Below, in pieces: positions 19,732 through 34,691 of a DNA stretch of 64,000 nt. The notes under the pieces are model-generated. The model worked only from the letters and a program-made list of their open reading frames with translations. It was not told the origin of the DNA and made no database searches. This DNA comes from Capsaspora owczarzaki ATCC 30864 (lineage: Eukaryota; Opisthokonta; Filasterea), in the NCBI RefSeq assembly GCF_000151315.2, contig NW_011887292.1, forward strand, positions 1,961,181-2,025,180, in the 5' to 3' direction. A program made the position numbers and the translations under genes. The stretch's first letter is position 1. Every line of letters begins with the position of its first letter.

Positions 19732-22585
19732 CTATTCATCCTCTTCATAGTCCTCTTCCTCGTCTTCGTCCTGAAAGTCCAAGTCCTGATCACCGAATTC
19801 GGGTAGATCTGCAGGGGTGATCTGGCCGGGCATGCCGCCTCCTTCGCTGTTGATCGGGAATCGCAGTGATTGAACGAGCTGTTGCATCAGCGTAGTAATG
19901 CCAGCGTCTGTAGCAGCAGGCCCTGCGGCAGCATTTTGCCGGGCTTGAGGGGCCGGGGCCGCTCGTGGCGCAGGTACAGCGCCAACATGATCCTGTCACC
20001 AGCCCAATGAGTCGATGCAATGGAATGACAAGCTTGTGCAAAAGCACGGGAGGGGGGCTTTTGAGAGGACTTACAGCGGCATAACCTGGCATGAGCGACG
20101 CCATGATAGAAGCCATCATCTCGCGGACGCTCATCGACCTGAGCGCGTGTTGTTCTTCAGGCTGGGTGCGCTCTGTATATTGAGACTCGGAATCGGGTGG
20201 TGGGAGAGGATCGTGCATGTCGAAGCGCGCAGGGCGAGACTCTTGAGTAAGCGCACCAATCGCTCCTTTCAAGTCTACCCCCCAAAAACACAAGATCAGA
20301 CAAAAACACAAACGAACAAAAGCCGTGGTAAGAAACAGACAGTGCACGATGACCACCGGAGCGGACTCGCCCTGCCTCACCTGAAAGAACAATGTGACGA
20401 ACAACGTTGAGAGGAGTTTTGACGTAAAAGGTCTTTCGGACGTGCAGCCCGGCTTCAGACACGGGCGACTTGGCATCGTACAGTTGCATGACCGAATTGG
20501 CCACTCGTAATAGCCATGGAGCCACCTGTGGATTAGTCAAACATGCGGTCAGCATCAGAAGCAGAAGCACCATGACGCACAGCCAGCACACCATAGTACC
20601 TCCGGCTCCTTCCACAGGGAAAAGCTACGCTCGACATAGAGTGTCGTAATTTGATGCAAGTTGAGTTCGGAGGTAGTACTGGCAACATCTTTGAACAGCT
20701 CGTGTCGGAAGACCGCCCCAGGAGCCGAAATGTTACACCTGATCAAAGCAGAGTCAACAAAAGACGATTCAGTACAACGCTTTTGCGAACTCAAAGAAGA
20801 ACGCGATTCACAGAGCACATACTTGTCCAAAAGCATCGGGAGCACATCGGGGAAGTGGAGCATGGCAACTTCAAGTTGCTTGTCCGCTTCGAGAGAAAGA
20901 CGAGCAAACTCGGTCTCGATTTCGGCATCGGACAAGCGCTGAATGTCGAGCTCGGCTGCTTTCGCGGCGGCATTGCCCTTCTTGGACTTGCTGCTGCCAG
21001 CGCCGCTGTTCTGAGTACTGCCGCCTGAAGCGCGGTCGAGGAACTGCTGCGCCAATCGATACTTTGCGAGCGCGATCGAGTAAGCAAAATTGGGCAGCAA
21101 GGAGAGAGACCGAGCTTGGTCCCACTCGGAAAACAAGCGGCACAGCCAAGCCTCCTCCCCAGCGCGCAACGCGTAAAAGTCAATCATCAGCAGGACGCCC
21201 ATGGGGTCGGTGTAGGGGTCGAGCGACAGCATGAACTTGCAATACTCCAGCGCAGTTCGCCAGCAGCCACGTTGACCAATGAGCTGCAGGTAGCGGAAGA
21301 TGGCAAGGAAGACGTCACGGTTTTCGCGCCATCGGTAGGACAGCCGGCACGTGCCGAGCGCTGGGTTGAACAACGAGTGGAAGGACATTTCGAGGGCAAA
21401 GAGAGCCCGCTCGATCAGCTCGAGCGCCATGGGAAGGTCGCCGTGCATTCTCGAAACTTCGCTCAGCTGCACGAGCGATCCAACGTGGTACGGGTACATG
21501 TTGAGCAGATTCGCAACTGCATCAACTTGATAGCTGTTCACTGCCATGAGAAAGTGCTCCTGCACAGTTGAATAGGACGAGGAATGCATGATGCGAAACC
21601 ACGCGTCCTTGGCAGACCTGCGGCGTTCCACCGTATCGGAGCGGGTATCTGGCTCCATTGAAATCCCACCGCGCCCAGACAGTGGCCAGGTGTCTTTTGG
21701 CCCGGCAAGCCAATACGTCCGGCGAACAAGCGGGCGTTGGCCTCGCACATTTCTGCGCACAACACCGCCGCCGCCACCCCGACGCTCGTCCCCATCGTCG
21801 CCAGTCGCGGCAGCTGCGATCGTGGCTGCGCCAAACATGCGACGCATCTCGACATCGGCTTTCATGTTCTTGGCTTCCACAAACAGCACAGGCCTTGCCG
21901 ACGCTGCCGAGCCGGATGCAAACACGGGTGTGTTTGTGTCTGCCGCAGGTCCAGTCCAGACCAGATCGCCGTACTTTTTCTGTACCTCGCGGATGGCGAG
22001 ATCAATTTCGTCCAGCTCTGCAGTCTGCGCGTCGACGCGAGCAGCAGCCGAGCTTGCTGAATCGGCGCGCTCCGTAGCGTTGTCGTTCGAGGCAGAGTCG
22101 CTGGCTTGTGCCTTGCCCTTGCCCTTGGCCTTGGCCTTGGACTTCGCCTTGGATTTCGCCTTCTTGCTTTGGCTTTTGCCCTTGGCCTGGCCTACAGGAG
22201 CGGCGTTTTTGCCCTGTAACTTCTTGGCGTGCTCTTCTGCGCCCTTGTCCTCGTCGTCCTCGTCGAGCTCGCCCTTGTCCTCGTCGCCAATGTCATTGTC
22301 GTTGTCATTGTCGTCATCTCCGTTGCCGCTCATCAGCAAGTCGAATACATTGCCCCGCTGCATGCGCCTTGAGCTTGACGGCACCACTTCGTCCTCGTCC
22401 TCGTCATCGTCCAGTTGCTCCTCGACGTCGCTGTCCTCGTGCTGGTCCTCCGCATCAGCCTCGGACACTGCTTCAGTGCTCGTCTTCTTGCCGCTTGTAG
22501 TCTTGGTGGTCGATGGGGACGCCCGTGGCGGCGGCAGTGGCTGCTGCTGCTCGCTCAGGGCCTTACGCAACGCTCTGGCACTCAT
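19732..22585 (-). CDS. TCF25: TCF25/NULP1 (Rqc1 family) protein
   Basis: Component of the ribosome quality control complex with Listerin and NEMF, from yeast Rqc1 and human TCF25. Five exons on the minus strand: 22585-20823, 20738-20600, 20525-20381, 20274-20075, 19992-19732, about 835 aa. The start MSARALRKALSEQ matches MSRRALRRL of human TCF25. An acidic then Lys-rich N-terminus follows. The core contains TWPLSGRGGISMEP, FLMAVNSYQVDAVANLL, YPYHVGSLVQLSEV, ERALFALEMSFHSLF, RTALEYCKFMLSLDP and LLMIDFYALR. Exons 2-4 carry LYVERSFSLWKEPE, NVVRHIVLS and MHDPLPPPDS, the counterpart of GFDPLPPSD. The protein ends in a run of Asp/Glu. The frame extends upstream of 22585 only without an ATG. Confidence 0.93.
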
Positions 22586-23714
22586 TGCTTTCACGGGATG
22601 GTGACACAATCAGCGAGAAGTGTTTGCTGAAAACAAGGAAGAGTGAATGTCGCCATTGGATCAAATACATGCCATTCTGTAAAGTGGCAGCGGTAAATCA
22701 TGATGCACAGCGGATCAGGCTGAGTTGTTCAGAACAGCAGCAAACCTGTGTTCTGTTTTAGAGGTCAGTTCCTGTTTTTTTATTTTTGATTTTTAGTTGT
22801 TTTTTTTTTTTCAACTCTTTTCGTTTCGTATTCCCTTCTCAAATCGCTTGTTTAAGGTGAGTCGGTGAGTTTGGTGGGTTGGGAAACGGAACGAGGGGTG
22901 AGGGTGAGGGTGAGGGAAATGGGGCGGGATTCACACATGCACGCGCATGGCGAACGTTCAGCACGAGCGGCTCTGCTCGCAACACAAGTGCGTGCGTGCA
23001 ATGCACATGCAGCGGGGTTCATTTGGCGTTGAAGCTGGAGGCGAGGAGGGGCGGCAGATGGGGTGAGAGAGCTGCTTGCTGGGCTTGCTGTTTATGAACG
23101 AGAAACCAAGACCACCAAACCCGCCCTGGACCCACGCTACCGCAGCGTGTCGCGCCAGCAACGACATGGACCACAACCGGCTTTCACATTGATGTGCTTC
23201 GCCGTTGTCGACATGGTGGCTTGCGCGGTCACGGTGGGGGTGTCAAATCGGGCGTCGGTGATATGCTCGGCTGTTAGCACCTGAGTCCGTCGCATTCAAC
23301 GCGTGCCAGCGTTCCCCTATCCTCCCAAAGGGTCTTGCGTATATTATGTCCCATAGCCATGCCTCTCGTGTTGAGCTGGATGGGCGGCTGCTGGTGACCT
23401 GAAGCTGAGCGACCGAGCGCTTTTTGTTTCTCTTATTTCCTTTTTTCGTTTTTTTTTTGTTTTTTTTTTTTTTTTTTTCCCTTTGATCTGGTATTTTATT
23501 GATATTTTCCTTCTTCTTCGTTCCCAAGCAATCTTAACACGTCCATGTCGTGCACCAGCAACCAGCTCAGAATTCACTATCAACCAGACGCTTCAGGGAC
23601 AGGGGGCTTGTTCGATGGAAAACAAAAACGAGCGAAGGGGCGATGACAAGTCCTGTTGCTGCGATGCATTGCATCGATTCGTGATCACTGACGCTTTGGT
23701 GCTCGATTTACAGC
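22586..23714. promoter_or_regulatory. Long divergent intergenic region between TCF25 and the receptor tyrosine kinase
   Basis: 1.13 kb separates two head-to-head genes, longer than most gaps here. It holds T-tracts at about 22800-22811 and 23450-23480 and a G-rich run at 22895-22916. No open frame in it is convincing. It probably carries the RTK promoter and 5' UTR. Confidence 0.45.
22895..22916 (+). repeat. G-rich tract with four G-runs
   Basis: Four runs of three or four G separated by TGA fit the G-quadruplex pattern on the + strand. It lies about 800 bp upstream of the RTK start and 310 bp upstream of TCF25. Confidence 0.7.
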
Positions 23715-26700
23715 ATGCGACGTTGGAATGCCTCAATGGCAAGGGTTGGCACACAATTCTGGAGCATGTTCGTGCTCGTCTGCTTTTTGGTCGGATCTGC
23801 GCACGCCGTCCAATACCGTGCAACATGCTTTGCACGCGCGTTGTATTTCACCCAAGATTCTGGCTGCGGTGATGGAACCTGTACGTGCCGGTCCTTGGTT
23901 TGTTGTGAAATGCGTTTCCATGTTCGTCCTGTGACGCTCATTGATTCTGTTTGCGAACATAAAGGCGACCCCTTCTGCACTGGTTGGGTGAAATTTGCGC
24001 CAAATGGCAACGCAAACTGGAATGCCGGTGTGCTATCAGAAAACAGCAATCCTCGTTGGAACATTGACATCAACTACGGCGCTGTGAGCGACTGGGCAGG
24101 GACGGTGCAATGGTATGTTAAATGCGACGACGACGATCCTTGGCCCAATCCCGACGATATCATGGGATGGAAGACGTTCAATCCCATCACCCTGAACGGC
24201 AATGAAGAGCAAGGCAGCTTGACCACCATTCCTTGGCAAGGTGTCGATCTCGGAGGCACCACTGGTGGCGAGTTCAACATTCCTGCAGTCTACGTCTATC
24301 ATCGCGCCATGTGCGACCAATACTGGTATGGTGCTCGTTGCGGCGAGTACTGCAAAGTCAGCGATCCTCCGGCGTGCACCGCTTGCAATCCCTCATCAGG
24401 CGTGTGCACTTGCTCTGTCGGTTACACGGGCAAAGACTGCGGCACCTGCGTCGCCCCAAACTACTGGCCAGTTGGCACGCCGGGACAAGCCGGCTTCCAA
24501 TGTGTGCACTGCGCGAGTACAAACCTTTCCACTGTGTGCTACACGTGCGGCACAGGTGGCGTCAAAAGCTGCTGTGACGGCTGGACTGGCCCGAATTGTG
24601 ACAGGTCAAACGTGTGCGGCGCGTTCCCGATGCCTCCTTTGAACTCGATTGCCGTCATGAATGTCACTTCTTGTAACTGCAACTTTACTGGATGCATGTG
24701 CACCTATGCATGCAAGTCTGGCTTTTCTGGTGGCTCTGCTACGACGACGTGTCTTTCAAGCGGGCCTTGGAGCTGGAGTTCAACTTTGACCTGCGCGGAC
24801 AGAGACGAATGCGCTCCGGGCGGCGGCAACCAGTGCAATCAAATCTGCAACAACACCATTGGCGACTATACTTGCTCTTGCAACTCGGGATACAGTATCA
24901 ACAACGCTGGCCGCGGTCCGAGCGGATGCACAGACCTTGACGAGTGCTCGACAAACAATGGCAACTGTGGCCAAAATTGCAACAACGTTCCAGGATCGTA
25001 CCATTGTTCCTGCTATGATGGTTTCCGGTTGCAGGGCGACGGCAAATCATGCTCGGAGATTGACGAATGCCAAGAAGGCTTGGACAATTGCGACGGGAAT
25101 GCCACCTGCACCAACACCATTGGCAGCTTTGAGTGCGCGTGTTTTGCCGGATTCGTGGGCAACGGCACTGTTTGCACGGACGTCGACGAGTGCGCCACTT
25201 TGCCTTGCAGTGAGTTTGCTGACTGCGCCAACTTTCCCGGCAACTTTACTTGCACCTGCCAAATCGGTTATGCGGGCAACGGCGTCCAGTGCGTGTTTGG
25301 AAATTCAGCGGCTTTTGCGGAAAGCTCGCGGTTTGTACTCCTTTCTGACGGCGCATCGAGCGCCACCTCGCCCATCCAGTTGCGCGTTGAAATGGTTCCT
25401 GACTTTGACGGTACTCTTGTCCCCTTTAACGTGTCTTCGTTGGATCTCATCCTAGGCGTTGATTACACTGTGGAGACCCCATCTCCGCTGGTCTTCAATC
25501 TCGGCGACACATTCAAATCCATTACGATTGTGGTGATTGGCAATGACAACCCCGAGCCTCTTCGGAGCATCTTTGTTCAACTGCAGGATTCAGTAAGCGC
25601 GTTTAACAAGTCGACAATTGCCGTGGACGCCAATGACAATCCAAATGCAGTGGTACGCTTTGCCGCGGCGTCGCGCGCGTTTCGGGTGGACATTACCGCT
25701 GGCACCTACCCTCTCACGATTGAGAGGTACTCGTATGCATCACTCGTGAATGCCATCAATGTCACTGTGTGGTGCGATTTCCCAGTGCCCCAAAACATTT
25801 CGATCGTGATTCCCGCAAACCAAGCCGCAGCAACGAAGATCATTCAGCTGCCATTCTCGTCCGTGCCTACTCTTGATGTCGTGCACACGTATACCATCGT
25901 TAGTGCCATGGTGATTGGCAGTGGATCTGCCGCGGCCATCGGGTACTATTCGACTTCTCGCGTGACCGTGAACGCACACGACGACCCTTATGGTGTGTTT
26001 GGATTCAGCTTGACTCACGTGTCGGTGGCGGAGAGCTCTACGGGCTTTGTGCAGTTAAAGCGACTCAAGGGCACTCTGGGAACTACGGTCGTCCGCGTGC
26101 GAAGTTTGACTTTGAGCTCAAGTCAAGCCAATGGTGTGGGAATCGCATCCCCAAGCGACTATGCCGCTGTTTCCCAGCTTGTCACTTTCAGCGAAAACGA
26201 TGTCGAGGCCCATGTCTCTATTGCAGTGCTTGCTGATGGTGTCCCTGAGCTGGATGAAATGTTTGGTCTGCTCTTGGAGTATGTGTCCGGACCTGGCCGT
26301 GTCGATGCGACATTGGCGCTGGCGTTGGTCACCATACCCGAGAACGACAATGCGCGTGGTGTTCTCTCAATCACGCGGGTGTCCAGTTGCTTTGAAGAGT
26401 CGCCCCTTGTTGGTGGAGTTCCTCAACCGAACAACACGGTGGCGATTGAAGTCATCCGCTCTGGTGGTCTGTATGGTGCCGTTTCATTTACCTGGTCGAT
26501 GCACAGCGGAAGGTTCAAGAACACGACGCTGTCCGCCGACAATCGAGCATCAGCGCCCGGAGATTGCACGGCCTCGTCAAGTCAAACCGTGATTATTGCT
26601 GCTGGTGTGGACCGTGCACAGATTCAAGTGGTGCTGCTTGCCGACTCAATCCCAGAGTTGGACGAGTACTTTTGGGTGCAGCTGGATTCGGCAAGCTACG

Positions 26701-29362
26701 GCGTGACCATTGACCCAGTCAGCAACTTTACAGACGTTTGCATCGGCATGAACGACAATCCATTCGGATCTTTGGCGTTCGAGCGTGTCAATCTCACGCT
26801 GAGTGCGACGGGCGAGAGCCGTCTGCTTGTTCGCGAGAGCGATGTTGTGACTGTCGCTGTTTCGCGTGTCGGTGGCACGTTTCACCGAGTGTCCGGAGTT
26901 GTCTCCATCGCGCATGAAACAACCAGCTCGGCTGATTTTGCTGACAGCTCCGCTCGCACTGTCACATTTGAACCTGGACAACGTACTGCGTTGGCATCAT
27001 GGACGATCAGCGCAGACAGCACACAGGAGCCGACCGAGCTGTTCAAGCTTGTTTTGACGGCGAACGGAGCCAGCGCTGGTCAGGAAGCAACTGTTCTTGT
27101 TGGCGCGACGTCGTTGGACTCTACCATCCCGTGCGCTATTGAAGCCCAGGATGGTGTAAACGGCGTTTTATCTTTTGTTCAACCGACGGTTTCTGTCGTC
27201 GAAGATACTGGCAAGGTCACTCTGACAGTGCAACGTGTCGGCGGAAGTGCCACAGAAATCAGCTTCCAGACCAACGCAGTGCCTCTTTCCGCATCCGGCG
27301 ACGACTTTGACGCGTCAAATCAAAACAACACGTACACGCTCGCGGTTGGGGAGACATCTGTCTCGTTTGACATTGAGGTTTCAAAGGACAGTGCTCCTGA
27401 ACTCGACGAGACCTTTACTGTGACGCTCGTCAATGTGACTGGTGCGACCTTGTCGTGGATGTCAGTGGCGACTGTGACCATTCTGAGGAATGACGACGTC
27501 AACGGCGTGGTTGAGTTTGCTCCTTCATCGGGTCAAAATCCACTTGTGACGACCATCTCCGAGGACTCTGGCTTTATTCGGCTCCCTCTGTGGCGTGAGA
27601 TTTCACAAGTGGGTTCCGTCACGGTGAGCTTTGTCGTGACAACCGACCTCACGTCTGATCCCGCGTGCGCGTCCCTGTCGGGTTTGGGTCTGTCCTCAGC
27701 CCCAGCAAACCTGACGCAACATGTGGACGCGGCGCCGTTTGTGGTGACGTTTGGAGACGGTCAAAACGAGGCTGAGCTCGCGATACCGTTGCACGACAAC
27801 AGCTTGCTGGATGGCAGTCGAGTCATGTTCATCTGCCTGAAAAATCTGCAAGGAGGAGCGCGCTTTGGTGCCTCTCAAGCGATGGCAATTGTCATTCAAG
27901 ACGACGAGCATGATACGAACGAATCAAGCTCCGCTCCAGTAGCTGCAGCTGCTGCAGGCGCAGCAGCGGGAGGCATCGTGGTGCTTGTCGCCGTCATCGT
28001 TGTGTTGGTTAGTCGAATTCGGCGCAAGCGAACTCGTGTCGTACAAAATGGCGAGCTGATCGCTTCATTCAAGCCTCAGAACGCTCCAACCGGCAATCAC
28101 CAGTCCATGACGCGCAACCCCATTTTTACTCCTTCGGATCCTGAAACTGACTCCCCCTACGAAGTCTTCATTTCCACGCGACGCGCGGCTTCGCCATCCG
28201 AGAAACATGCTGAAGGGCAGGATTCTCCGTCGCCAACCGCTCCGCCTGCGTTTGACGCGATGCGTGCAGCATTTAGTTCGACGCGTGGACAGCAAGAAGA
28301 AGACGTGTATGACTCGGTGTACACGTCAACAATAGATTGCTTCCAGCGAGAGCAAGCATTTTCGCGCGACGAGCTCCAGCTCAAGTCTCTTCTGGGTTCT
28401 GGCAACTTTGGCGAAGTCTGGCTGGCGCATGTGCCCTCCCGATGGCTCGCAAAGCAAACTCGTCAGTCCCGCTCCTCCAATGCGACGACGGTCGCCGTTG
28501 CTGTCAAGACTCTGAAAGCGGATGCCAGCGACAAGAGCAAGAGTGACTTTGCTGGTGAAGCCCAAGTCATGCGCCGCTTCAACCATCCCAACATTGTTTC
28601 CGTTGTCGAAGTTTTTGTCGAGCAGGAGCCCTGGATGCTCGTGCTCGAGTTGCTTCCGTATGGTGACTTGCACAAGTGCATCGAATCGTGCAACGCTGGC
28701 GGATTGACACCCACTGTTGGAGAGTACCTGCACATCTTTTCGCAAGTGGCCAGCGGCTTGTCATACCTTGCTGGACTGCGCTTTGTGCATCGCGATATCG
28801 CAGCACGCAACTGTCTTGTGGGAGCCGGTTTGGTCGTCAAGATCTCCGATTTTGGTTTGTCGCGCGAGCTGGAAGAGCAGAATTATTACCACATGCAGAC
28901 ACGTAGAGCCCTACCCGTTCGTGTAAGTCGCATTTGCTAGTCACAGAGTTGCTGGTGTTTGAGATGGCCGCGACCTAAGTGTTCTTCTTGTCTGCTGTGC
29001 CACAGTGGATGGCGCCCGAGTTTTTGCTTTATCGCAAGTCATCGCCTGCGTCGGACGTCTGGGCGTTTGGCGTGCTCATGTGGGAGGTCTTGTCTGCCTG
29101 TATTCTTCCGTACGAAGGCGTTGATGCGAAAGGACTTGTTCTCTTTTTGGAAAGCGGCCAACGCTTGTCTCGTCCCCCGCTTTGTAGCGATGAGCTTTGG
29201 GAATTAGTCTCGAGCTGCTGGACGTGGGAGGTGACCGACCGTGTTGATGTCGCCCAGCTTCATGTTGCGTTTGCACGAATGTCACTGGACGAATCTGATT
29301 CCGTTCGCGACTTGGGTGCCATCTTGGCTCGAACGAGCTCCGTTCAACCCACGAGTTCGTAA
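23715..29362 (+). CDS. Receptor tyrosine kinase with DSL-like, sushi-like, EGF-Ca and Calx-beta ectodomain
   Basis: Two exons, 23715-28922 and 29006-29362, 1854 aa. Order: signal peptide (1-31); a Cys-containing head (~35-195) ending in a DSL-like module (CDQYWYGARCGEYC to GYTGKDCGTC, ~198-245); a sushi-like module (~300-360); four calcium-binding EGF modules starting DRDECAPG, DLDECS, EIDECQ and DVDECA (~362-528); about seven Calx-beta-like repeats with NDNP/NDDV linkers (~530-1400); a Gly/Ala/Val transmembrane helix (~1412-1433) then RIRRKR; a juxtamembrane region with several Tyr; and a kinase (~1552-1840). The kinase looks active: GSGNFGEVW, VAVKTL, GEAQVM (helix C Glu), HRDIAARN, DFGLS, a YY-containing loop and PVR-WMAPE split by the intron. 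HRDxAARN marks it as a tyrosine kinase. Ligand unknown. Confidence 0.94.
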
Positions 29363-29499: not shown

Positions 29500-32400
29500 T
29501 TAGAATAGCCCACTCTTCTTGCGAAGCTCAACCTTCTTCCACTCGGGGTTTGACAAAAAGGCCTCGCGCTTCATCTGATACAAGTCCTCAAAATCGGCAT
29601 CGGAAATGTACTCCTGCTCACAAGCCAAACACAGGCGTCGCATCAGAGTGTGAGTCCAAGAACACAGCACAACCCAATCGCCATCGAAACCATGTATTTC
29701 AACCCACCTCCAAGCAACGAGGATCGACACCAGGAGGGAGCTTTTCGGCGGGAACCTTCAGCTGGGCAATCGGGTAGATTTTCTTGGTGAAGAGCTGCAA
29801 CATGGTCTCGAGCGACGCCACTTCAGCGCTCAGCGAGTGGCGAGGCGTAACGTCCTTGTTGAGCTTGGCAGAGACGCTGTCGTCCCATCCATAGAACAGA
29901 GCTTTGAAGGCTGCAGGCTCATGTCCGCCAAAGACAACGTAAGCCTCGGACGATTTGCGCCGGTCTGTCGCTCTCGGGTCCTTTGGCGAAAGAGTGAAAT
30001 CGCGGTAGTCGCGCAGCGCGTTGACACCCAGAAGCACATCGTCAATGTGGACACCGGCGCCGCACCAAGCGTACAGCTCATGCAGTCCATCAACAAGGAT
30101 GACGGCGTCGGCCAAGAGATCCTCTTGGGTGAGCTTGTCGAGCTCGAGCGCAATGACGCCTGAAGCGTGATTGCGAGAGAGCAACCAAGCTCGAAGATGG
30201 TGGTTTGACTCGGGGCAACGCTTGAGATGGGACGCGTTGGCGTACGACTTGAGCTCAAACTCTGCGGGCTCGCTTCCTTCGTCGACCTTAACGACGGCGA
30301 GCTTGGCGTGTCCCTTGGCACCTGCCACCATGGACTCGGCAACGGTCTCTGCCAACGACTGCTCAAACTTTGCCGAGCCCTTGCCGCGCCAGACAAAGAC
30401 TGAGGATGACTCTCCGTGAACAAAGACAAAGCACGAGTTTGAGGCCAAAAAGGCGGTGCTTGGAGAGGCAAACTGAACGGAACGCGCCAGCGCGCGGTTC
30501 AGGCCTCGCACCTGATACAGGGCCCTGTAAGAGCGCACATGCACGCCGGGCTGCTTTTCGCGAGAGCCGCTCGGCAAAAGAATGTGGTTGACAGACCGGG
30601 GGCCATGGTGGACAACCATTCGGTTTGGCCGCGCGTTGAAAACGCTGACAAAATGGTCGTGCTCCTTGCCCTGAGGAATCATCACTTGCGGAGCACCGTA
30701 TTGCCGGTCAACTTCAATCGCATACATGGCGGAGGCGCCCTTGTCGAGGGGCGAGCAGTCGCGGCCTTGCCAGAGATACAGAATGTACAGGTCGACCTTT
30801 TCGGCAATCTTGTACAAGACGACGTACGATTCGTTGGAGAAGAAATGGCCATGTTCAGACTCGGGCAGCTCGTCGCGCGTCTTGTCAGTCACGTGCCAGA
30901 TTTTCACCTCACCAGTGCCATTGTCCTTGTTGATGAGCCAATCCCAATTCGGGATGCGTGGCTCTTGCTCCATGAGAGCGGGAATGTCAACCTTGGAGAC
31001 CTTGCGGACATCAGCGCCGGTAATGTATGCCGTCTTGTCCTTGCGCTTGATGTTGGTCTGCTGGCGCGGGGCAATGGACATGCCTTCCGCCCAGTTGTGG
31101 AACTTGTCCTTGAATGACGTGTGCTCTGTGTTCTCCTTGACCAGCAGTGCCTTGGTCCACGCGGGTCGCTTGGACCCACCAGGCGCGGGTTGCGGCAGCA
31201 AGACCTGCTCGGCGTGCTTGAGCCCAATGTCACGGACAGCCTCGGATCCCTTGCGACCCTTCCAGAGATACAGCTCACTGCCGGAATCCAGAATGAAGCA
31301 GCTCTCACTGTCGAGCATCTCCACGCCCAAAGGAGCGCCATTCTCATTCACGACCTCGAGTTCGCACGACGTGGCGTTGTCGTCGGTATTCACGCGGTAA
31401 AGGACAATCTGCTTGTCCAAGATGGCGTCGTATGCAGAGTCGTCATCGGCACCAGCAACGATGGGTGCGGCGAGCATCTTTGCCTTCTGATCCACGATCA
31501 TGTCGCTGGGAACGCCAAGGGCAGCCCAAAAGTCGCTGCTCCCGCGCGTGCGCGTGTCAGAGTCATCCTGATCGTCCAACGTCACAATGTTGACCTTCCC
31601 GCCGCAATCCTTGTCCTTGACACGCACGGCAGCCTCGAATCCCTTTGCGCGCACGAGTTTGGAAGCGTCGCGCCCATTCCACAAGAATACTTCACCGGCA
31701 CCGCCATCGAGAATGGCCACCTCGGCATGCGTGAGCTGGTGGATGTTGGGCTCGACACGAATCATGCGGAAGCGACGCTTGCCCTTGAGCACGTAGAGTG
31801 CCTTGTCACGCTTGAGACCAACGAGGCCCACAGAGCCAGACGCGCTGCCAGACCGTGGACGCTCAAACGCGCCAAATGGTGAGCTTGGGCCGGACGACGG
31901 GCTGCTGGGAGCTGGGGATCCAACGCTCTGGTTGACATTCAGTCCCGTCTTCTTCAATGTAGGGAAGCCACCGCTACCAGGCAGACCAACTTGGGCCAGC
32001 AAGCCAGCAGCACCTTTAGCGCCAACTGGGGGCTTGAAGGTCTTTGGCGGGGTCGATGTTGAAGAGGCGTTGGCCTCCTCTTGTTCGCGCAGTTTGATCT
32101 GCAGCTCCATCGACTGTGTCGATCCAAGGGCAATCGTAGAAGGGCGGAGGCCTGCGCGACCGCGAATGCCACCCTCCGCACTAGCGCCGCCGGTCATAGC
32201 AGCAGCCAGAGCAGCCGCAGGGCTAGCAGAAGATGTCGTCGTCTTTTTGAGCGCACGGGGCACGTTGTCGTCGTCCTCGGCTTCGGTCTTCGAGGCTGGT
32301 TCGGTGTTATGGCCAGCAACGTCAAACAAGTCCTGCACATCGGTTCTTGCTTGGAGCGTGCGAACGGGGTTGATGGAATGGCGATTGGAGCGGTTTGGTC

Positions 32401-34691
32401 GAATTGCGGCACGGCCCAGCGTCAAGTGAGTGAGCTTTTTGCTATCAGAAGCAAGAGCCAGATCGCCGAAATCAAGCGACGCGCCATCGTTGCTCAAAGT
32501 CGCCTTTGTCTCGGAGGCGTCTTCAGTGACGGTAAGGCTCGGACGAGGCGCTTTGGTTGTCTCCTCGTCTTCTGATGAGAGGGTGACTTTCTTTTTCGAC
32601 GCGATCGCAGCGGGAGCGCTGGTCGGCTGAGACGGCGGGGCACGCGAGGTCGTGGTGGTGGTGGTGGTGGTGCTGGTGAGATCCTCAATCGCAGCAGCAG
32701 TCGCTGCGCCACCAGCCATCAGTTCCTGTTCCGCAAGTCGCCACATTTCTTCATCGTCAATGTCAGCTTCCGCGATCTTGACTTTTGTTGCAGACGGACG
32801 CTTGGCAGGGGTGTCGTCCTGCGCAGTCGATGCCTCCTTGGCCTTGAGAGCGCGATCTGCCTGAGCTTGGGCTTCCTTTTCGGCAACTGCAGCAGCCGCG
32901 GCTTCTTCTGCTTGTTTGGCCTTGCGAGCACGCTCATCCTTGCGTTTTTGCACGGCTTCAGCTTCGGCAGCTGCTGCTTCCTCGGCCTCACGGGCCTTGC
33001 GAGCACGCTCGTCCTTGCGCTTCTGCTCGGCTTCAGCTTCTGCAGCTGCGGCCGCCTCTTCAGCTTCGCGGGCCTTGCGCGCACGCTCGTCCTTGCGCTT
33101 TTGCTCGGCTTCAGCTTCGGCGGCGGCCGCCTCTTCAGCTTCGCGGGCCTTGCGCGCACGCTCGTCCTTGCGCTTTTGCACGGCTTCAGCTTCGGCGGCT
33201 GCTGCTTCCTCGGCCTCACGGGCCTTGCGAGCACGCTCGTCCTTGCGCTTTTGCTCGGCTTCAGCTTCGGCAGCTGCTGCCTCTTCGGCTTGTTTGGCCT
33301 TGCGAGCACGCTCGTCCTTGCGCTTCTGCTCGGCTTCCTCCTCCTGTTGCTTAGCAGCAGCTTCACGAGCCTCGCGTTCCTTGCGGCGAGTCTCCCGCTG
33401 ACGCTCGCGTTCTGCTTCTTCTTCCTTTTCTTGGCGTTCGCGCTCGGCCTTCTCGGCAGCCTTCTTCTCGGCCTCAGCGAGTTGCTCGGCGTCGGCCTTG
33501 CGCCTGAGTTCCAGGCCGGCCTTGCTCTCTTCTTGGAGAATGCGCTCACGAGCCACTGCAAGTTGTTGCTCATCGAGCTCTGCAGCGGCGCTTGCCTCGT
33601 CGACTGGAGCTGGTGGGCTGTTTTCGGAGGCGCCAACAATGACAGTCAAGTCCTCCGACGAGAAGGAGACCTTGCGTTTGGGACCCAGACCGTGCTCCGA
33701 GCCAGATTTCTTGAGCGACGTCTTGCGGTGGAGGCCACCAGTGGCCTCGGTGTCGGTGGAAGCTCGTCGCGCTGGCGTTGAAGACGGTGAAACGACCGTT
33801 GCCGACGAGTCAATGGCTTGGGAGGAAGCTTCGCGACGCAACGTGCGCTGTCGACAAGACGAAGAGAAGGCAAGTGAGCGATTCGGCAGTTTTACGCCAG
33901 ACTCGTTTGTCAGCAGTATCAACCTCAACATGACTGTGCAGCAAAGACTTGCCTGCTGCTCAAGGGCTCGGAGATCTTCCTCCTCCTTGATTCGGCGCTC
34001 GTCATTCGCACGCTGCCGCTCGCGCCGGCGTTCTTGACGCTCAGCCTCTTCGCGGGCTTGGTCTTCCTCTGCCTTCTTGAGACGTTCCTACAGCAGAAGT
34101 GGTGGATCGCACGACGGTAAACCAACAGTACCAAAAACGTGAATGAATGCGCAGATCAAGTCAAGATTCAAAAACGAGTGTGCAAACTCACTTCGCGGGC
34201 CTTGCGGCGCTCCTCGGTATCCGAGATGGCTGGAGAATCGGGTGCAGATACAGCAGCTGACACGGCACGCTCTGGCACGGCCGAAACCGCAGGTGCAGAT
34301 GACGAGGTTGGAGCAGCAGCCAGCAGATTGTCGGACGACTGCTCGCGCTTGGCTTTGCGCTCCTCCATCCGCGCCTTTCGCTCCTGCACCAAGCATTAGA
34401 CAAGGTAAGACCAATTCATATTCATACGAGTGTTATCAATGTGGGATGCATCTGGATGCTCAAACGCTGAAATGCTCGAATAATAAAAAGAAGCAAAAAC
34501 CGAATTCCTTGCTCTCTGTTTGACTGTGCAGACGCCACTCTGAAACACGCATCATCCCTCCACCCGCGAGAGTTTGTCTATTTGTCTATCTCTCTCTCTC
34601 TCTCTCTCTCTCTTTCCAATAGCATTTCACTCACAGATGTGACAAGAGTGTCATGGCGTAGCGGAATGAGAAAAGACGCCAAAGAGCGAGC

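Follow-up and report, generated by a model that had tools for sequence, protein, structure and literature searches.

The stretch of DNA analysed here (64,000 nucleotides of the Capsaspora owczarzaki ATCC 30864 genome, referred to as the window) holds a gene for a receptor tyrosine kinase (RTK) at 23715-29362 on the forward strand, with the frame and coordinates that the original prediction had given. Both a membrane span (hydropathy) and a tyrosine kinase domain (PF07714) were present in the window gene, on which its assignment to the RTKs was based. The RTK gene is flanked by two genes on the reverse strand, one for a TCF25 homologue (20558-22609; PF04910, E 4.5e-92) and one for a gelsolin-repeat protein (29702-34087; PF00626, E 1.3e-33, three stretches) with the internal charged repeat RKDERARKAREAEEAAAAEAEAEQ.

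All features of the RTK gene described in the following lie on the forward strand. Exon 1 (23715..23880) was taken from the open reading frame, with its 3' border placed according to the phase-1 intron common to the paralogs, and would encode a signal peptide (approximately residues 1-32, judged by eye) as well as the first strand of a C2 domain. It is followed by intron 1 (23881..23964; 84 nt, phase 1, in frame, and without a stop), which was placed on the basis of the paralog heads. The putative C2 domain (23811..24299, minus intron 1) was delineated by its CDP, NPRWN, and DxD motifs, a PF00168 match below the gathering score, and the profile of the head family. Two DSL-type modules come next: module 1 (HRAMCDQYWYGARCGEYC...GYTGKDC; 24300..24440) was assigned from a PF01414 match below the gathering score and from the family profile compared with the DSL of Notch ligands, and module 2 (24507..24605) from a PF01414 match of the module alone (E 0.0018, 19 bits). 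Strand SDWAGTVQWYV, the DSL-like stretch VYVYHRAMCDQYWYGARCGEYC, and the terminal GYTGKDC, all pointed out in the original prediction, were found in the sequence as described.

Downstream of the head, four calcium-binding EGF-like repeats (24798..25292; PF07645, E 6e-17, four stretches) and six Calx-beta stretches (25300..27912; PF03160, E 8.6e-29) were recognised, both with approximate limits. The transmembrane segment (27954..28019, approximate end) was placed at the hydropathy maximum, residues 1414-1432. The tyrosine kinase domain begins on one exon (28374..28922; PF07714, E 9.4e-46) and continues on the last exon up to the stop (29006..29362; open reading frame 28979-29362); the intervening kinase intron (GTAAGT...CACAG; 28923..29005) was read by eye and would join PVR to WMAPEF.

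Hidden intron 1 and the head family in the genome

The predicted intron 1 of the window RTK (GTACGT...AAAG, 84 nt) is free of stops and hence resembles protein when translated. At the same place, a phase-1 GT...AG intron was readable in nine out of nine window-like heads, including the window itself (borders being a reading from the sequence), with lengths of 70, 75, 80, 84, 84, 89, 90, 220, and 227 nt, and in six of these nine the intron blocks read-through, since it contains a stop or its length is no multiple of 3. The spliced window head would read QYRATCFARALYFTQDSGCGDGTC joined to DPFCTGWVKF, i.e., ...SGCGDGTC followed directly by DPFCTGWVKF.... An early cysteine cluster, GDGTCTCRSLVCC, had been put forward as a likeness to the N-terminal MNNL domain of Notch ligands; all of its residues past GDGTC are a translation of the intron at 23881-23964. 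Because splicing of intron 1 would remove the residues after GDGTC, the compared cluster would for the most part not exist in the protein, and it was rejected as evidence for MNNL. Other heads of the family were without this intron and had a phase-0 intron directly before the G-[ST] strand instead.

The genome (27.46 Mb, 29 contigs) was searched with three heads of the family as queries, which gave at least 19 gene loci with a C2-DSL-type head. Seventeen heads were spliced and used, with a first alignment and profile of 14 heads and a later profile of 17; the profiles do not include the heads at C17:460129 and C12:515215, because the exons of both are interrupted, and the former, though outside the alignments, was counted among the nine heads with the phase-1 intron. 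These two heads (C17:460129-460873 and C12:515215-515779) are possibly pseudogenes or assembly errors. Among the candidates scored, at least 11 of the 19 heads had a kinase match on their own strand at a distance of 1.1-4.4 kb downstream. At three loci (L023, L024, and L053), the same head type caps shorter receptors, with the kinase approximately 1.1 kb downstream and a head intron that precedes the G-[ST] strand and is in phase 0. Elsewhere in the genome, Notch LNR repeats (PF00066) were detected at three places (C10:722023-722661, C1:1118363-1118617, and C1:437017-437286), with seven of the eight matches above the cut-off.

For six of the remaining eight heads, no kinase was found in the expected stretch by tblastn with the window kinase, a query that did detect kinases at other loci. 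The stretches in question (L075-L083) are C14:155750-156800, C1:25400-26050, C1:64150-65200, C1:1135150-1136350, C1:2166200-2166900, and C1:39400-40100. The frame of the head in these six siblings reaches a stop via a tyrosine-bearing tail, and the portions of the tails that were read hold 3 to 11 tyrosines. For three of the six, the reading covered the complete tail as well as a hydrophobic span, which was recognised by eye; these tails of 232, 254, and 170 residues contain 17, 18, and 8 tyrosines, respectively, and one of them ends with three SEYDNV repeats. An RRRR and ELNPLH motif was also read in the three kinase-less siblings with a hydrophobic span. The reading of the six siblings as carriers of the C2-DSL head without a kinase where one is expected is supported at the level of the genomic sequence, though an additional exon joined by splicing might still supply a kinase. 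The last two heads (C8:1362113 and C8:1357857) were placed neither with the kinase-bearing nor with the kinase-less group; about 1 kb downstream of C8:1357857 the sequence is still rich in cysteines, with sushi-like repeats as judged by eye.

The C2 domain and its probable relation to the Notch-ligand head

The original prediction had proposed a Notch-ligand head on an EGF/Calx-beta RTK. Its order of a C2 domain followed by DSL was supported by the family profile and the PDB matches, and its MNNL domain in the strict sense was not. On balance, we favour the reading that the C2-DSL head and the tip of Notch ligands are one and the same ancestral cassette, carried here on kinases. When the 14-head profile was searched against 177,635 PDB sequences, 55 matches were obtained at E ≤ 10, comprising 11 Notch-ligand sequences, 41 C2-domain sequences, which matched in the N-terminal part of the head, and three others. 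With the DSL removed, all 37 PDB matches of the C2 part, the best of them with E 0.015, were to C2 proteins and stand for some 15 distinct proteins, with synaptotagmin-1 occurring many times, the C2 nature of each matched sequence being partly presumed; there was no Notch ligand among these 37, and the column-shuffled C2 profile used as a control matched one unrelated chain (E 0.098).

NPxWN together with DxD constitutes a C2 signature, and both motifs were visible in the alignments of the C2-part profile to C2 proteins. Judged from the sequences of the 17 heads alone, acidic residues of the calcium type are present in loops 1 and 3: D25 of loop 1 is Asp in 16 heads and Glu in one, and of the acidic pair in loop 3, D79 is Asp in 12 and Glu in 5, while D81 is Asp throughout (17/17). 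The assignment of the N-terminal domain to the C2 domains is supported at the family level.

The MNNL profile (PF07657) matched none of the 14 heads, and its search of the genome returned no match, giving nothing in the controls either. The four known Notch ligands taken as a control match MNNL strongly, yet they miss Pfam C2 at E ≤ 10, and because Pfam C2 is blind to them in this way, the MNNL null weighs little. According to the available parts of PMC3888931 and PMC5538765, the N-terminal domain of Notch ligands is structurally a C2 domain, with 10% identity to the C2B of Munc13 (PMC3888931). Since Notch-ligand C2 structures escape Pfam C2, Pfam cannot decide between C2 and MNNL.

In direct profile alignments (hhalign), the C2 part matched MNNL alone with E 0.016-0.019 over 16-17 columns, i.e., over the single W-x-G-T strand, and the real score of 19.7 was higher than that of 200 out of 200 shuffles (maximum 16.3) and of 44 reversed versions (maximum 13.3). 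The whole head scored 67.3 against Notch ligands, as compared to 50.4 for the DSL alone and a mean of 56.9 (maximum 65.2) for the DSL with shuffled C2 columns.

These scores bear on the main alternative, namely that a canonical C2 domain of the synaptotagmin/PKC type and a DSL were fused independently in this lineage, giving the same order as in the Notch-ligand head by another history. We regard such a fusion as quite possible, if somewhat the less probable course of events. None of the 200 shuffles attained the score of the real head, which argues against it, whereas three of 37 versions with rotated C2 columns reached or exceeded that score, which argues for it. It is likewise favoured by the window clade, where the C2 part brought no gain (51.0, as compared to 51.5 for the DSL only), the gain being due for the most part to the L003 clade (71.2 vs 54.7) and to L020 (36.3 vs 27.3), and by the intron position, which differs between the two head types. 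The likeness of the C2 part to canonical C2 domains rather than to MNNL (Pfam C2, E 0.0094 on the window head, and the 37 PDB matches) points in the same direction, and the failure of Pfam C2 to see the Notch-ligand domain despite its C2 structure (PMC3888931) points in the opposite one.

Features common to both groups stand against an independent fusion. In the heads as well as in Notch ligands, a strand enters the first cysteine of the DSL without a linker (by eye), and an aromatic-x-G strand followed at an offset of 12 by an acidic residue is common to the heads, Jagged1, Jagged2, and Serrate. In each of the 17 usable heads, D79 follows an aromatic residue of the x-G strand at a distance of 12 residues; the residue at this offset is Asp in Jagged1, Jagged2, and Serrate, and His in DLL1, two DLL4 sequences, and fly Delta. 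By our own residue count, the Asp in Jagged1 is Asp140, which coordinates calcium according to the available text of PMC3888931. Homology of the C2 part with MNNL rests on one strand, the Asp spacing, and the domain order, and is not proven; it was kept as likely only, because the rotation control weakened the argument. A common origin of the head's C2 with the Notch-ligand C2 is accordingly proposed as likely at the level of sequence.

The DSL-type modules and the fold of the N-terminal domain

Pfam DSL (PF01414) matched module 1 of the window with E 0.0046-0.0053 and 17.4-17.6 bits, which falls short of the gathering score (24.2). The profile check suggested in the original prediction came out in two ways: when a 107-residue cut that spans the two DSL-type modules was scanned, the match was above the gathering score (31.1 bits, E 2.8e-7), and on longer pieces of the window head it was below (18.3-19.2 bits). 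For the window protein of 1735/1741 residues, no PF01414 match was listed at E ≤ 10. Because the window protein by itself scores weakly in Pfam DSL, the DSL claim is carried by evidence at the family level. The family DSL profile aligned to the DSL of seven Notch-ligand sequences with E 2e-11 over 46 columns (hhalign), and in the PDB search with the 14-head profile, ranks 1-9 were all taken by Notch ligands (E 3e-7 to 9.6e-4), with two more ranked lower. The best of these matches were fly Delta (3e-7), Jagged2 (1e-6), DLL1 (5.5e-5), DLL4, and Jagged1. Homology of the DSL in the head family to that of Notch ligands is considered well supported by these profile comparisons.

That the cysteine-rich part is a generic EGF or laminin-EGF module instead of a DSL appears very unlikely. 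EGF_laminin did match pieces of the head (E 0.009 and 0.024), and the weak DSL scores of module 1 alone, the longer pieces, and the long protein would fit such a module. Against this, DSL outscored EGF_laminin in every scan that showed both and, in the cut with both modules, rose above its gathering score. The DSL cut-off was also passed at seven places of sibling loci, six of them being the second module. Moreover, the nine top-ranked Notch-ligand sequences were placed ahead of any other EGF protein, namely SCARF1 (E 0.022) and Tie2 (E 0.15), which together with a phosphorylase make up the three other matches of the 14-head profile.

For the N-terminal domain, scores of single sequences were weak: Pfam C2 (PF00168) gave 16.6 bits on the window head (15.8 bits in another scan; gathering score 22), listed 3 of 14 heads at E ≤ 10, and in an unspliced search at E ≤ 0.001 matched 62 genome places, none of them at a head locus. 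AlphaFold in single-sequence mode produced models of low confidence for the unspliced window head (pLDDT 42.6) and the post-intron part (pLDDT 43.6), and Foldseek with the latter model returned 408 matches, none at E ≤ 0.001. The reading to which these weak scores and the lack of a confident fold would lend themselves, i.e., some other beta-sandwich that resembles C2 by chance, is very unlikely in view of the uniform C2 identity of the 37 PDB matches as opposed to one unrelated chain for the shuffled profile, the NPxW and DxD motifs, and the Asp that 16 of the 17 heads have in loop 1.

Relation to known systems and proposed role of the head

Notch ligands (Delta/Serrate/Jagged) resemble the Capsaspora receptor in the C2-DSL-EGF order at the extracellular tip, in the DSL homology, in the strand running into the DSL, and in the acidic residue at the offset occupied by Asp in Jagged1, Jagged2, and Serrate. 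They differ in that the Capsaspora C2 is closer to canonical C2 domains in sequence and is without an MNNL match, and in that the Capsaspora receptor has two DSL-type modules, followed further along by Calx-beta domains and a tyrosine kinase. The C2 domains of synaptotagmin, PKC, cPLA2, AT3G17980, and perforin share the loop motifs and the sequence profile with the head C2, whereas the latter is predicted to be extracellular, contains cysteines, and is fused to DSL.

A DSL-bearing Capsaspora RTK is already known: the available part of PMC4810162 describes a 'Delta-like' RTK that combines EGF repeats with two DSL domains, attributed to Suga et al. 2013, so that the DSL part is not new. With two DSL-type modules, EGF repeats, and a tyrosine kinase, it very likely belongs to the same gene family; that part of the account makes no mention of a C2, Calx-beta domains, the hidden intron, or kinase-less siblings. 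Among the literature matches listed, in the portions available, none named a C2 on a Capsaspora DSL receptor or its kinase-less siblings. In the accessible text of PMC6040629, MNNL and DSL are reported together only from animals and one choanoflagellate, and DSL by itself from some other organisms; DSL is recorded there for two ichthyosporeans. The choanoflagellate Delta candidate (S. dolichothecata, PMC6040629) likewise has MNNL and DSL outside animals and is unlike the present receptor in that its MNNL is detectable with Pfam, that this text reports no kinase for it, and that it lies on a partial contig. For Creolimax, the available part of PMC4739763 records no DSL among the secreted proteins.

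The probable reading of the RTK tip is a C2 domain, with acidic residues of the calcium type in its loops, that leads without a break into the first of two DSL-type modules; this cassette would act through receptor clustering. The C2 apex would bind, with calcium, an anionic surface such as phospholipid, by analogy to Jagged1, DLL1, and Serrate, for which calcium- and C2-dependent phospholipid binding is described in the available text of PMC3888931. The DSL face would bind a protein partner, possibly the EGF repeats of a sibling receptor, be it on the same cell or on one next to it, by analogy to the DSL of Notch ligands, which contacts the receptor (PMC5538765, as far as available). Such binding may lead to clustering, upon which the kinase-bearing members would phosphorylate themselves as well as the tyrosine tails of kinase-less siblings, and the phosphorylated tails could then serve as SH2 docking sites.

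More tentatively, and as an idea somewhat more doubtful than not, Notch ligands might descend from a kinase-less member of a pre-animal system that paired C2-DSL receptors with a kinase and C2-DSL receptors without one, in which the cassette was first a sensing tip and from which the head for combined recognition of lipid and protein was kept. A C2-DSL pair in a filasterean would move the origin of the head before the split of animals and choanoflagellates, and the signalling head of Notch ligands may therefore be older than animals. Calcium- and lipid-dependent clustering of receptors would provide a testable ancestral role apart from Notch, and the kinase-less siblings with their tyrosine tails hint at a system of receptor and docking co-receptor in a single-celled organism.
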